Virus record (IMG/VR): IMGVR_UViG_3300022934_000058
Span: 1-38,600 of that record
DNA length: 38,600 nucleotides
Direction: 5' to 3' (one strand)
Origin: a virus
Part shown: one piece after another, positions 1,904 through 38,548 of the stretch
Position numbering within the stretch: the stretch's first letter is position 1
How the letters are laid out: every line of letters starts with the position of its first letter
Notes under the pieces: generated by a model
What the model saw: the letters and a program-made list of their open reading frames with translations, nothing else
The model's database searches: none
Told to the model about the DNA's origin: nothing
Made by a program: the position numbers and the translations under genes

Positions 1904-2252
1904 TTACGAGGCATATAATGAGAATTTCATCTTCCTCTCCACTGTTATCCTGAGCGGCCATGAGGAAGTCAAGTTCTGGGCCGAAATCATAACCCTCTAG
2001 ACCGTTTACCTCTTCGTATTGCTTAATCAAATGCTCAATGTTACCCCTGTCGAACCGGATGACATAAGCCTCTTGTGTCTCTTCGTCTTCATAATCCTCT
2101 GCGTCTACCTTTACCTTCTCTAGTTGCATCCCTTGCACATCAATCGCTAGCTCACGGCAAGATTCCCTGCGGAACAATCTAGAGGCAGGTTGGCCTGTGT
2201 GCGTTTCGACATCGATGACAACGCTCGTGAACTTCCAGAGTCTGTCTTTCAC
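1857..2252 (-). CDS. hypothetical acidic protein, 131 residues
   Basis: A very acidic protein, with about 30 Asp and Glu residues, including VDAEDYEDEETQEA, and the C-terminus DLGSEDDY. Small acidic early phage proteins often act as nucleic-acid mimics or host-enzyme inhibitors, but nothing here identifies a target. It overlaps the 2249-2611 gene by four bases (ATGA), so the two are coupled. Confidence 0.65.
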   Translation of the reverse strand: MKDRLWKFTSVVIDVETHTGQPASRLFRRESCRELAIDVQGMQLEKVKVDAEDYEDEETQEAYVIRFDRGNIEHLIKQYEEVNGLEGYDFGPELDFLMAAQDNSGEEDEILIICLVIDDGTTRDLGSEDDY

Positions 2253-2611
2253 TGCTTTGCCTCAATGGTTGGTAGCTGGTCTTTGCGTGTGCATTTGCAC
2301 CTTGTGTAAGCCGATCTGAACAGGCTCTCAGCCGTCTGCAAGAACTCCACGCCACAGAGGTTGCAAACACACCTCAGCTTTGCCCTGCGGCTTCGATACT
2401 GACCTACCCTTCTAATACGCTGGGAATAGTTAGTCTTGATTCGATCATCGACAATGCTTTTGTCGGTTGCTTTTGTCTCGTGGGAGTATCGGTGAGCCTT
2501 CCTTGGCGGCTTCTTAAATGGATCAAAACTGGCTAGGAGTTCTTCGAGTTTCGGGTCGTTGTAGTAGCCATCTGGGTCATAAAAGTAATCATTATCAAAA
2601 AAATCTTCCAT
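2249..2611 (-). CDS. Cys-rich zinc-binding-like protein, 120 residues
   Basis: The N-terminal 30 residues are acidic and aromatic (MEDFFDNDYFYDPDGYY). A basic middle with a SQRIRRVGQYRSRRAKLRC stretch leads into CVCNLCGVEFLQTAES and then RCKC, giving four to five cysteines spaced like a zinc ribbon. This pattern suggests a nucleic-acid-binding protein. The start at 2611 has AAGGA eleven bases upstream, inside the duplicated element at 2610-2731. It is the first gene of the small leftward cluster after the primase. Confidence 0.65.
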   Translation of the reverse strand: MEDFFDNDYFYDPDGYYNDPKLEELLASFDPFKKPPRKAHRYSHETKATDKSIVDDRIKTNYSQRIRRVGQYRSRRAKLRCVCNLCGVEFLQTAESLFRSAYTRCKCTRKDQLPTIEAKQ

Positions 2612-2731
2612 ATTTTGATTTTTCCTTGACTTTTATCGTTCTTACGTTGTAAGCTATCACCTGTGCTTTGCAAAGCTTTTAAAGCAGCTAGGCAAAAAGC
2701 ATTGCAGGGATGATAGCTTATATAACAACGT
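2610..2731. promoter_or_regulatory. duplicated structured element E1
   Basis: This intergenic element shares several blocks with 22728-22840. On the plus strand: TTGACT at 2626-2631, an 18-base spacer, TAAGCT at 2650-2655, GCAAAAAGCA at 2692-2701, GCAGG at 2704-2708 and GATAGCTTA at 2712-2720. AAGCTATCA (2651-2659) pairs with TGATAGCTT (2711-2719), and ACGTTGT (2644-2650) pairs with ACAACGT (2725-2731), forming a long stem with inner GC and A-rich pairings. The first 25 bp match the second copy at 23 positions and contain the ribosome site and ATG start of the leftward 2611 gene. It may be a promoter plus small RNA on the plus strand, a structured leader on the minus strand, or an origin. Confidence 0.7.
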
Positions 2732-2746
2732 TATTAGGCTTTGCAC

Positions 2747-4762
2747 CTATGCCTCACCCCTCTCGGTAGGGGTAGACGGATCTTTGATGAACTGAGCTAG
2801 ATTGTCACTCCAAGCCTCAGTTTTCTGATAGAAGAACTGCTTGAACTCTACTACACCTGCTGGCATCAGGTGGTCACGAAGTAGAGTTCTTAAGACGGAC
2901 TTGCTTTCTCCAAGCACCTCTTGTGCATCCTCGGGTCTGATAACAGGGTTATTCTCTAGGAACTCCTGAACCTTCCTGGCCCTTGCAGACCGCTTCATTT
3001 GGTTCTGTATCGCGTTTTGAGCTTTCTTGTCTTGCTTTGGCTCTTGGTCATTCTTGCGTACAGCTTCGTCATCACATAGCGTCCATAAGAACCCGTCGAG
3101 CGTAGCCGAGCGGCTCTTTGGGGTCTTGCTTGATCGAGTGATAGCTTCGACACAGACCATTCCTTCCTGCTCGTGTGGGAACAAGACAACCTGCGTGTCT
3201 GCTGCTCTTGAGATAGCTCCAGCACCTGCACCAACGTCCGAGACTTGCTTCTCGTTCTGGTTGCCCTTGCTTGCATGATGCACACAGATTACCGAACAAT
3301 CAAATGTCCGAGCTATCCGGTCGATGGTATTATAGATCAGCATCATCTGGGCGTTATCGTTCTCCGATGTACCTGCTGGTATAAAGCGATACAGTGCGTC
3401 TAGGATTATAACATCGAATCGGGATGCTCCTGACGCAACGAGTTTCTGCTCGATGTGATTCATATCCACTGCTGCTCCACGCAGGCATGTGAAGTGCAAG
3501 TCGTCGCCAAAATTGACTCCCATCGCGTCCTGAACACTGCCCACACGGAAAGCTAGCTCCTCGGGATGCAGTTCGTTATCCACAATCATGCACTTGAGGT
3601 TATGAGGTGCAGTCCAACCCAAGAACTCCCCGCCGGTTGCTAACCTTGCTGCTAGGTTGTAGACGAACCATGATTTACCAGTCTTAGGTGCTGCAATCAG
3701 GTTCATGGTTTCACCTCGACGGAGCAAACCTTCGATCACATAGGGTCTACGCTGGGGTGATGCTTTGCGTAGCTCATCAAGGGTCTGAGTAGGGTAGGAT
3801 TCTTCTAGATCGTCTCCACGAGTCCTTGCGGATCTCATCTCATCTTGGATGCGTTTTACCTCATCGTCGGAGATATCACTTGAAGACCCGTAGCCAAGCG
3901 TTCTAAGCTCGTTTGGCAGTTGATCCATTGTGATCCCCTTGAGGATTCTAAACGCCTCAGCAAGCGTCACAGCGGCATCGGAGGGGAATCCTGATGGGTC
4001 TGATGTCGAGAAATTGCGTAATAGCAGCCGGTCATTCTTAGACTTGATGCCGATGGTTCCAGATATCTTGTAGGTCGATTCTCTAGCTCCCGGCCGTACA
4101 AACTCATAAGTTCCATCGCCTTTGGTAATGACCGTGTATCCGGCTCCTTCAAGTTCACCTTTAATCACTTCAAGTGCTTCCGAGGACATGTTAAACGCAT
4201 CGAGTGGTGAGTCCTCGGGAGTGACCGACGATGGCACAACGTCCTCGAACTGAAAGTTCAGTACCTCAGCAAGACCAAACGGAAGGTCACATATCAGGTC
4301 ATTTCCACGAGTAATCTTGTAGGTTCCAGCAAACGTAGCGTGAGACGAACCCGGCCCGATCACCTGACAGCCTTTTCCGAGAAAGTCCAGACCAGGAAAC
4401 TCTTGCGTACTCTTGGGTAGCTTTTCTAGGTCAGGGTTGTTGAAGTAGAGATGTGCGCCTCCGGAAGGACTTTCGACGATGATCGAGGCTGCTGACCATA
4501 GGTCAATGCCATGCTCGTCTTTGATCCGGCTTAAGCTTGCATAGCCATTCTTCGCATCGTCATGTACATCGATGTCCACAACGAGCATGTCTTCGTCGAG
4601 AACAATCCCGTACTTGTCGTACTTGTCTGAGGTCGTATCGAGATCCTGAGCCCTTATCTGCGTATTCGGCCAGTCTTTGATTGCAGGAGATTTCAGACCA
4701 ACCCTGATCGGTACGCATCGAGGGTTCATGTCGAGGATTTGCTGTGGGATTTCAAAAGGCAT
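2747..4762 (-). CDS. primase-polymerase / RepA-like helicase fusion
   Basis: A 671-residue replication protein with two domains. Residues 1-170 are an archaeo-eukaryotic primase (prim-pol) domain with the metal motif VVDIDV (Asp63, Asp65), SPSGGAH (His104) and the G-S-S-H region near 139. Residues 340-560 are a RecA/RepA-like ATPase with Walker A AAPKTGKS (357-364), Walker B FDVIILD (Asp455) and the ICVHHASKG motif. This fusion primes and unwinds phage DNA and commonly replaces separate primase and DnaB-type helicase. The C-terminal 100 residues resemble a winged-helix tail. It is transcribed leftward from a GGAG ribosome site, divergent from the terminase genes. No DNA polymerase gene is seen elsewhere in the window, so host polymerase is presumably used. 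Confidence 0.9.
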   Translation of the reverse strand: MPFEIPQQILDMNPRCVPIRVGLKSPAIKDWPNTQIRAQDLDTTSDKYDKYGIVLDEDMLVVDIDVHDDAKNGYASLSRIKDEHGIDLWSAASIIVESPSGGAHLYFNNPDLEKLPKSTQEFPGLDFLGKGCQVIGPGSSHATFAGTYKITRGNDLICDLPFGLAEVLNFQFEDVVPSSVTPEDSPLDAFNMSSEALEVIKGELEGAGYTVITKGDGTYEFVRPGARESTYKISGTIGIKSKNDRLLLRNFSTSDPSGFPSDAAVTLAEAFRILKGITMDQLPNELRTLGYGSSSDISDDEVKRIQDEMRSARTRGDDLEESYPTQTLDELRKASPQRRPYVIEGLLRRGETMNLIAAPKTGKSWFVYNLAARLATGGEFLGWTAPHNLKCMIVDNELHPEELAFRVGSVQDAMGVNFGDDLHFTCLRGAAVDMNHIEQKLVASGASRFDVIILDALYRFIPAGTSENDNAQMMLIYNTIDRIARTFDCSVICVHHASKGNQNEKQVSDVGAGAGAISRAADTQVVLFPHEQEGMVCVEAITRSSKTPKSRSATLDGFLWTLCDDEAVRKNDQEPKQDKKAQNAIQNQMKRSARARKVQEFLENNPVIRPEDAQEVLGESKSVLRTLLRDHLMPAGVVEFKQFFYQKTEAWSDNLAQFIKDPSTPTERGEA

Positions 4763-21823: not shown

Positions 21824-22298
21824 CGTATGAGCTTCCTTTCACTGCGTTACATCTTGGACATGAAACAACGATATTGTGAGGTCTATTCGATCCGCCTTTA
21901 GATAGAGGCTTTATGTGATCGAGTTGCACATTTTCTGACAACTTTCCACAGTGGTAACAGGCATGCCCACTGTTTTCGATGATCATGCGAACCTCGGAGT
22001 AGGTCAACTTTTCATTTGTCCCGTATTTTATAGACCTGTTGTTTGCACTTGCCGCTCTTTGCACAAATGTAGTGTTGGGGCGAGACTTTCTTGCTGATCG
22101 GTAATGCTCTGGCTTCTTGTTGTAACTATTCCTGTTTGCGGCATTTACTTTCTCTGGGTTTTCTTTCCTGTACCTACTCCTATTCTTTCTGACGCAGCAC
22201 TTGCAGTCAGTTCGGTACTTTTGATTGTCCTTCCTGAAATAGAAATCAGATTCATTCTTTTTTTGGTTGCATGTTCGGCAGACGATCATTGCTTCCAT
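21810..22298 (-). CDS. HNH endonuclease-type protein
   Basis: A 162-residue protein with an N-terminal zinc ribbon (CRTCNQKKNESDFYFRKD, then CKCC) and a C-terminal HNH nuclease: ACYHCGKLSENVQLDHIKPLSKGGSN, then NIVVSCPRCNAVKG. The N-terminal ribbon recurs in many phage HNH proteins. It is overlapped with both neighbours in the operon, which argues against a recent homing insertion. It may process DNA during packaging or recombination. Confidence 0.85.
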   Translation of the reverse strand: MEAMIVCRTCNQKKNESDFYFRKDNQKYRTDCKCCVRKNRSRYRKENPEKVNAANRNSYNKKPEHYRSARKSRPNTTFVQRAASANNRSIKYGTNEKLTYSEVRMIIENSGHACYHCGKLSENVQLDHIKPLSKGGSNRPHNIVVSCPRCNAVKGSSYDAKA

Positions 22299-22705
22299 AC
22301 CTCCACTTCAGTAAACGGACCAATCGTTTTTCGATCAGCATCCTGATCTCCAAGAACCCATGCAACGTGCTGAATGTTGTCATCTTTCGCCACGCCAGAT
22401 TCTACCAAAGAATCTATCAACTCTTTGGCTGATCCCCTCAGCACACTGTCAGCGTCCCAATAACGCTGTCTAGCACCTAAAACCCTGCGAACAACTAGAC
22501 CTTGCTTGTGGCTGGGAGGTGCTTCAATGTAATCATAGAAAGCTAATTCAGCACCATTTGCTGGGATCACGATGGCCGAGTCGAGAGCCTTACGCCAAGA
22601 CTGACGCTCCCTGTGTGCAGAAGACCAGTGCTTTGACCGTCCTTGGTTGCCGTTGTTCAGTTCCTTAAAGATCCGAACAGTGTAATCGAGGTAGTAACCG
22701 AACAT
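22286..22705 (-). CDS. rusA: RusA-like Holliday junction resolvase
   Basis: The 139-residue protein has a N-terminal LNNGNQGRSKHWSSAHRERQSW and, after a basic RRVLGARQRYWDADSVL, the RusA signature: KELIDSLVESGVAKDD, with acidic residues (Asp in DADS, Asp-Asp in AKDDN) as metal ligands, and a C-terminal IGPFTEVEVW. It cleaves branched recombination intermediates. It is the first gene of the leftward operon with AAGGA at the ribosome site and an 83-base structured leader if the promoter in the element at 22728-22840 is used. Confidence 0.85.
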   Translation of the reverse strand: MFGYYLDYTVRIFKELNNGNQGRSKHWSSAHRERQSWRKALDSAIVIPANGAELAFYDYIEAPPSHKQGLVVRRVLGARQRYWDADSVLRGSAKELIDSLVESGVAKDDNIQHVAWVLGDQDADRKTIGPFTEVEVWKQ

Positions 22706-22727
22706 TTTAAATCCTTAAAGTCGGTGT

Positions 22728-22840
22728 TTAAGCTATCCTCCTGCTCTGCTTTTTGCTCCCGCAGCCTAAAAAGCGGAAGCCGCGAGCGAGGCATAGCTTA
22801 ACGACAAGCACCCCGAAAAGTCAAGCAAAAATGAAAATAT
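22728..22840. promoter_or_regulatory. duplicated structured element E2 in the divergent early control region
   Basis: On the minus strand: TTGACT (22824-22819), an 18-base spacer, TAAGCT (22800-22795), GCAAAAAGCA (22756-22747), GCAGG and GATAGCTTA (22737-22729), in the same order and almost the same spacing as in element E1 at 2610-2731. TTAAGCTAT (22728-22736) pairs with ATAGCTTAA (22793-22801). AAAAGTCAAGCAAAAATGAAAATAT (22816-22840) matches E1's 25 bp at 23 positions. On the minus strand it would be a promoter plus leader for the resolvase operon; on the plus strand it precedes the promoter of the rightward early operon. Confidence 0.7.
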
Positions 22841-22853
22841 TTAAAAAATAATC

Positions 22854-22883
22854 TTGACTTTGACCAACCGTGTCACTTATCAA
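22854..22883 (+). promoter_or_regulatory. rightward early promoter candidate
   Basis: TTGACT at 22854-22859 is a good -35 box and TATCAA at 22878-22883 a fair -10 (18-base spacer), preceded by an A/T-rich stretch. It lies 33 bases before the ribosome site AAAGGAGG of the gene at 22916. It is the natural start of the rightward replication operon. A second TTGACC at 22860 offers a weaker alternative. Confidence 0.55.
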
Positions 22884-38533: not shown

Positions 38534-38548
38534 GTCTCAATATGAGAC
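38534..38548. promoter_or_regulatory. CTCA-N3-TGAG inverted repeat, copy 3
   Basis: GTCTCAATATGAGAC is the longest copy (six-base arms, three-base ATA centre) of the repeat also found at 31-45 and 181-191. The distance to copy 1 would be about 83 bp if the window ends join. Confidence 0.55.

Follow-up and report, generated by a model that had tools for sequence, protein, structure and literature searches.

Inverted hairpin elements as candidate replication origins in an uncultivated phage with a primase-polymerase/RepA-like helicase

Genes and features at the two loci

The window, i.e., the whole stretch of DNA analysed here, is the IMG/VR virus record IMGVR_UViG_3300022934_000058 (38,600 bases, 47 % GC). 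Two related elements are located about 20.2 kb apart in it. Element A is situated 3' of the stop codon of a primase-polymerase gene and is followed by the next gene of that strand, while element B lies between two divergent operons. An earlier note made from the sequence alone had described both segments, one next to the primase gene and the other in the divergent early control region, and both are confirmed here. The features of both loci are:

2249..2611, minus strand: gene for a small cysteine-rich protein, next on the primase strand, conserved in relatives
2610-2731, motif series on plus strand: element A (sequence read)
2610..2634: A/T-rich block of A, 23 of 25 positions common to B
2626..2655, plus strand: promoter-like motif of A, TTGACT-N18-TAAGCT (TTGACT 2626-2631, TAAGCT 2650-2655)
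2644..2731: hairpin of A, 88 nt (folds; pairing kept in relatives)
2644-2650 / 2725-2731: outer arms of A (folds)
~2651-2659 / ~2711-2719: terminal arms of A (folds)
2675-2685: apical GCTTTTAAAGC of the irregular inner stem of A (folds)
2692-2701, plus strand: GCAAAAAGCA of A, followed by GCAGG and by GATAGCTTA, which ends at 2720 (sequence read)
~2720-2724: bulge of A (folds)
2747..4762, minus strand: primase-polymerase gene, Prim-Pol (PF09250) plus RepA-like helicase (AAA_25) plus C-terminal part (domain matches, structure model)
22286..22705, minus strand: small gene adjoining B, also beside B in L015, L016 and G005
22720-22840, motif series on minus strand: element B, inverted relative to A (sequence read)
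22720..22805: hairpin of B, 86 nt, inverted versus A (folds)
22720-22723 / 22802-22805: outer arms of B (folds)
22724-22727: bulge of B (folds)
22728-22736 / 22793-22801: terminal arms of B (folds)
22747-22756, minus-strand series: TGCTTTTTGC in B (sequence read)
22795..22824, minus strand: promoter-like motif of B, TTGACT-N18-TAAGCT (AGTCAA 22819-22824, AGCTTA 22795-22800)
22816..22840: A/T-rich block of B, common to A
22854..22882, plus strand: possible promoter in the opposite direction, TTGACT-N17-TTATCA, which would serve the early genes read rightward (read from sequence)

The helicase domain of the primase-polymerase matches the RepA profile (E 9e-4) and its model resembles the RepA fold (1nlf; TM 0.70 by target length) at a modest overall pLDDT of 69. 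A winged helix is suggested for the C-terminal part by the order of helices and strands in the model only; a single-sequence model of this part was too poor for use. The product of the small gene at 22286-22705 yielded no Pfam or PHROG match; we take it to be RusA-like from its appearance. Of the larger proteins of the window that were scanned, none was recognised as a replicative DNA polymerase, which speaks for the origins proposed below. Searches against cultured phages yielded no nucleotide match for the first 25 kb of the window, and with the primase-polymerase only helicase-domain matches of about 30 % identity and no full-length relative in the collection.

The duplication claimed in the earlier note, two segments sharing blocks in the same order, is evident from the sequence: apart from itself, the A region has its best match in element B (126 columns, E 1.7e-8), and GCAAAAAGCANNGCAGG has exactly two exact matches within the window. 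Coordinates and blocks stood as described, including the A-rich 25-bp block (23/25 identical, 92 %; 2610-2634 versus 22816-22840); the orientation, which the note did not mention, is inverted, B being read on the minus strand. Folding predicts a hairpin on both strands of both copies, extending past the stem originally proposed by an outer helix. In either hairpin, a bulge of 4–5 nt sets off the outer helix (7 bp in A, 4 bp in B) from the terminal helix (about 9 bp), to which an irregular inner stem is joined. The hairpin of A starts 16 nt past the stop codon of the primase-polymerase gene. In both copies, the outer helix sits between the −35-like and −10-like hexamers of the promoter-like motif, and the −10-like TAAGCT opens one terminal arm and hence lies inside the hairpin stem.

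The left end of the window (...GCGGAAAAACTTGCAATGA, primase strand) is shared as contig terminus by two independent contigs, L003 (within 3 bases) and L006, and at the same terminus L007 reads into what appears to be the start of an Illumina adapter (AGATCGGAAGA). Such coinciding termini suggest a fixed physical genome end; the window may therefore represent a complete linear genome, in which A and B would be situated roughly half a genome apart. A palindrome, TCTCAATATGAGA, is found near both termini (32-44 and 38535-38547), and a similar one, TCTCAAAATGAGA, immediately beside the element of locus L165, upstream of its hairpin. Operator, packaging or methylation sites are possible functions of these palindromes.

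Conserved pairing and hairpins following the primase-polymerase genes

The earlier note had proposed to look for the element in related phages. A hairpin recurs at the A position in every close or intermediate relative with a sufficiently long contig (L003, L005, L006, L007, L008, L018/L019, L011, L020 and L099; primase identity 98 to 48 %). The terminal arms of these relatives differ and yet pair (TAAGCTATC/GATAGCTTA, TAAACTATC/GATAGTTTA, TAGACTATC/GATAGTCTA, AAGCTGT/ACAGCTT). Selection on structure, as suspected in that note, is borne out by covariation of the pairs: counting across eight copies yielded 14 pairs with two-sided change as compared to 8.5 in shuffles, and the covariation score of the same number of copies amounted to 0.263 versus 0.156 in shuffles, with slid structures scoring 0.05–0.10. 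Since the MAFFT alignment does not hold the outer helix in register for all members, pair counts for this helix are conservative. Furthermore, better pairing than in shuffles was seen for the outer flanks (Fisher 2e-8) as well as for the inner stems (7e-12) of 12 elements, these values being overstated by the relatedness of the 12 elements. The two basal helices comprise ten pairs with two-sided change, and no pair in them varies on just one side. Such a pattern is unusual for RNA helices and compatible with selection on DNA.

Hairpins are also a general part of this gene family. In the 160 nt 3' of the stop codon of 54 related primase-polymerase loci (on phage contigs and, in some cases, in bacterial genomes, chiefly of Pirellulaceae), folding resulted in a median z of −5.1 versus −0.6 after other ORFs of the same contigs; z was below −3 for 81 % of the post-primase stretches versus 7 % of those after other ORFs (Mann-Whitney p 3e-23). 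Random windows served as additional controls. The shuffles used in the survey, random-window and flank/stem tests preserve base composition but not dinucleotides, against which the other-gene controls guard the survey.

These observations bear on the possibility that the element is a double-stranded operator, i.e., two binding sites for a phage regulator, inverted to each other and overlapping a promoter, with no hairpin being formed. Conservation is highest in the terminal arms, both sides of which change together, as two sites for one protein would; moreover, B lies between divergent operons with its promoter-like motif directed toward one of them. However, pairing is retained in the inner stem and in the outer helix as well, despite sequence turnover, the motif of A faces no gene, and what generally follows the gene family is a hairpin rather than a shared operator. 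An operator function therefore appears quite unlikely.

Several further features of the regions 3' of the primase-polymerase genes were observed. TAAA tetraloops are over-represented there (4/39 versus 4/1111 elsewhere in the same contigs, small numbers), occurring at L058, L064, L079 and L103, and CCCTAAAGGG is present in imperfect stems at L101 and L104. In GC-rich contigs (e.g., L021, L022, L028, L031, L034 and L036), CCCCCATACCCCCC is a single-copy motif within the post-primase hairpin cluster, found once per contig in 10 of the 20 records searched; it may represent a priming or unwinding signal of its GC-rich lineage. Distant primase-polymerase relatives (L100-L104) display clusters of repeats and hairpins 3' of the gene and are located in genomes of Pirellulaceae and other planctomycetes. 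These loci are probably prophages, and their location hints at the hosts of this phage family.

Matching of the two copies and the promoter-like motif

Beside a gene of the 22286 type, the B element is present in L015 (identical sequence), L016 and G005 (the contig of L019); at the B position of L017 a different hairpin of poorer fit is found, and several other loci carrying the small 22286-type gene lack the element. Extending the search via the two genes flanking B contributed one further element (L165), located in the same gap with its promoter-like motif directed toward the opposite operon. Thus, a fixed orientation of the motif at the B position is not general.

Both copies on a single contig were found in two phages only, that of the window and G005, the primase of which is 49 % identical to that of the window. 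In G005, an inverted A/B pair is located at 1697 and 22414, at a distance of 20.7 kb (E 2e-12). A second copy was also sought in nine further long contigs carrying related primases, which revealed weak matches only and nothing clear. The two copies resemble each other within a phage (alignment z of 15–20 for A versus B of the window and 16–18 for A versus B of G005), whereas scores between the phages are low (under 2 for the two A copies, 3–4 for the two B copies). Within the window's own subclade, A copies are alike across phages, as close kinship predicts. The matching of copies within a phage would fit one lineage-specific recognition factor, or else repeated duplication or conversion. A mobile miniature inverted-repeat element was rejected, as both copies adjoin the same genes in divergent phages.

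In 12 of 13 elements, the best −35/−10 match on the strand opposite to the primase is found at one and the same place in the structure (combined p 2e-4; other strand 0.86). Within the DNA that was fetched (2.3 Mb, partly overlapping), the joint signature of hairpin and promoter is confined to these elements. The motif at B faces the 22286-22705 gene and is kept in L016 as well as, in the form TTGCAT-N17-TAAGCT, in G005; that at A is directed, in antisense, into the primase gene at its 3' end and has no gene to serve. The window's own motif is weak and was not called by a strict scan. While the −10-like hexamer is part of the stem in all clade members, the −35-like hexamer is also paired in L011, L099 and L018 only and unpaired in the window; L005 and L006 kept the hairpin and lost a good −35. 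The hairpins of distant primase relatives lack the motif; hence the hairpin is general to the gene family and the promoter-like motif a feature of the clade. An A/T-rich tract is located just upstream of, and overlapping, the −35-like hexamer; it would fit an UP element as well as the unwinding element suggested in the earlier note. A reading as terminator was discarded, no terminator-like site being found.

Hairpins with embedded promoters are known from the F plasmid (Frpo), the complementary-strand origin of M13 and plasmid sso, where they act as promoters on single-stranded DNA. By analogy, the exposed strand at A and B would fold, host RNA polymerase would lay primer RNA from the embedded −35/−10, and the complementary strand would follow; the elements would then still be replication start sites, with the host polymerase acting as primase. 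In these systems, −35/−10-like hexamers are part of an imperfect, bulged hairpin or adjoin it, which also holds true for A and B. The paired −10 of all clade members, the paired −35 of some, the fixed structural position of the motif, its joint occurrence with the hairpin nowhere else in the fetched DNA and its lack of a target gene at A agree with this proposal. It is nevertheless unlikely: differing from Frpo, M13 and sso, the −35 is paired in some members only and the hairpins of distant relatives have no promoter; the motif of the window is weak with an unpaired −35, and L005 and L006 retain the hairpin without a good −35. Furthermore, host polymerase alone would leave the within-phage match of the inner sequences of A and B unexplained.

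The motif could also drive a structured RNA, and two of the three functions considered in the earlier note were of this kind, a small RNA or an mRNA leader. One might envisage a small RNA at A, transcribed from a promoter of its own, together with an mRNA leader at B, or else a structured part within the transcript of the primase gene, since a transcript starting from the motif would begin with the inner stem and at B would form the leader of the 22286-22705 operon. However, the conserved outer helix and one terminal arm are located upstream of the start point, so that RNA made from the motif cannot form the conserved stem, and RNA of the other strand would at B require antisense reading through an operon. 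G-U pairs are few (19/451 and 30/452 predicted pairs), pairs varying on one side are absent from the two basal helices, and Rfam contained no match at the gathering threshold. Small RNA and leader fit poorly, and a structured RNA is altogether very improbable, while the third function proposed in that note, paired replication origins, is by far the best supported because hairpins generally follow the stop codon of this gene family and because of the precedent of plasmid pRN1.

Candidate origins and their precedents

In the crenarchaeal plasmid pRN1, a 100-nt stem-loop situated 54 bp past the primase-helicase gene is required for replication (PMC4234260). It still works when moved, its structure is conserved while its sequence is not, and a similar stem-loop is present 3' of the replication gene of phage BIP-1 (PMC4234260). 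The authors based their proposal of a stem-loop mechanism on a single plasmid family and a single phage, with the caveat of no direct proof of origin activity (PMC4234260). Element A (88 nt) resembles these stem-loops in size, in its location shortly 3' of a primase-polymerase/helicase gene and in conservation of structure rather than sequence. It differs in that pRN1 and BIP-1 employ an SF3 helicase and have one reported stem-loop, whereas the phage of the window encodes a RepA-like AAA_25 helicase and possesses a second, inverted copy 20 kb away as well as an embedded promoter-like motif. For the winged helix of pRN1, the model suggests a possible counterpart in the C-terminal part of the window protein.

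The RepA-like domain relates the system to plasmid RSF1010, in which the RepA helicase is used together with a primase of the archaeo-eukaryotic type that starts at two hairpins, ssiA and ssiB, one per strand (PMC4434180). The window primase-polymerase is likewise combined with a RepA-like helicase, but in fused form, and two oppositely oriented hairpins are likewise present (window and G005). The ssi hairpins comprise 40 nt and belong to one plasmid origin, while A and B measure 86–88 nt and lie 20 kb apart. The GTG start motif 3' of the ssi hairpins is seen, by eye, in some A copies only, and neither iterons nor RepC were found here.

On the basis of both precedents and the RepA match of the helicase domain, A and B are probably two stem-loop origins at which the phage replicates by means of its own primase-polymerase/RepA-like helicase. 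We infer origin activity, recognition by the primase protein, direction of synthesis and a role of transcription at A and B as follows. The element would open by negative supercoiling, by transcription from the embedded promoter or by the initiator itself, whereupon one or both of the opened strands would fold into the conserved hairpin. The initiator would recognise its cognate hairpin, load its own helicase domain and make a primer at the hairpin, to be extended by host replication proteins. Since A and B are inverted and separated by roughly half a genome, synthesis could proceed from them in opposite directions, providing in effect one start site per strand, as do ssiA and ssiB of RSF1010, although 20 kb apart.

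Some observations weigh against these origins. The pair is present on one contig in just two phages, with no clear second copy in the nine other long contigs, and the reversed motif of L165 argues against a general fixed orientation. Much the same pattern would also result if the elements were symmetrical inverted repeats to which a protein binds as duplex DNA. GC skew, by which the earlier note had suggested to check for an origin, follows gene direction and provides no origin signal.

More tentatively, one may speculate on a two-site system in which a fused primase-polymerase/helicase acts at two hairpin origins, inverted and separated by about half a genome, with a host-type promoter in each stem; transcription would either trigger the folding of the origin, or be triggered by it, or the two would be mutually exclusive, and the copies would be kept matched during lineage divergence; in this complete form, the proposal is rather doubtful.

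As stem-loop origins, A and B would belong to a kind already known, in a form that is new by its inverted distant pair, embedded promoter-like motif and RepA-type helicase. The replication start of phages with primase-polymerases has been little studied; the present survey extends hairpins following the gene to dozens of uncultivated phages with another type of helicase, and the matched inverted pair leads to a testable prediction of initiator specificity.
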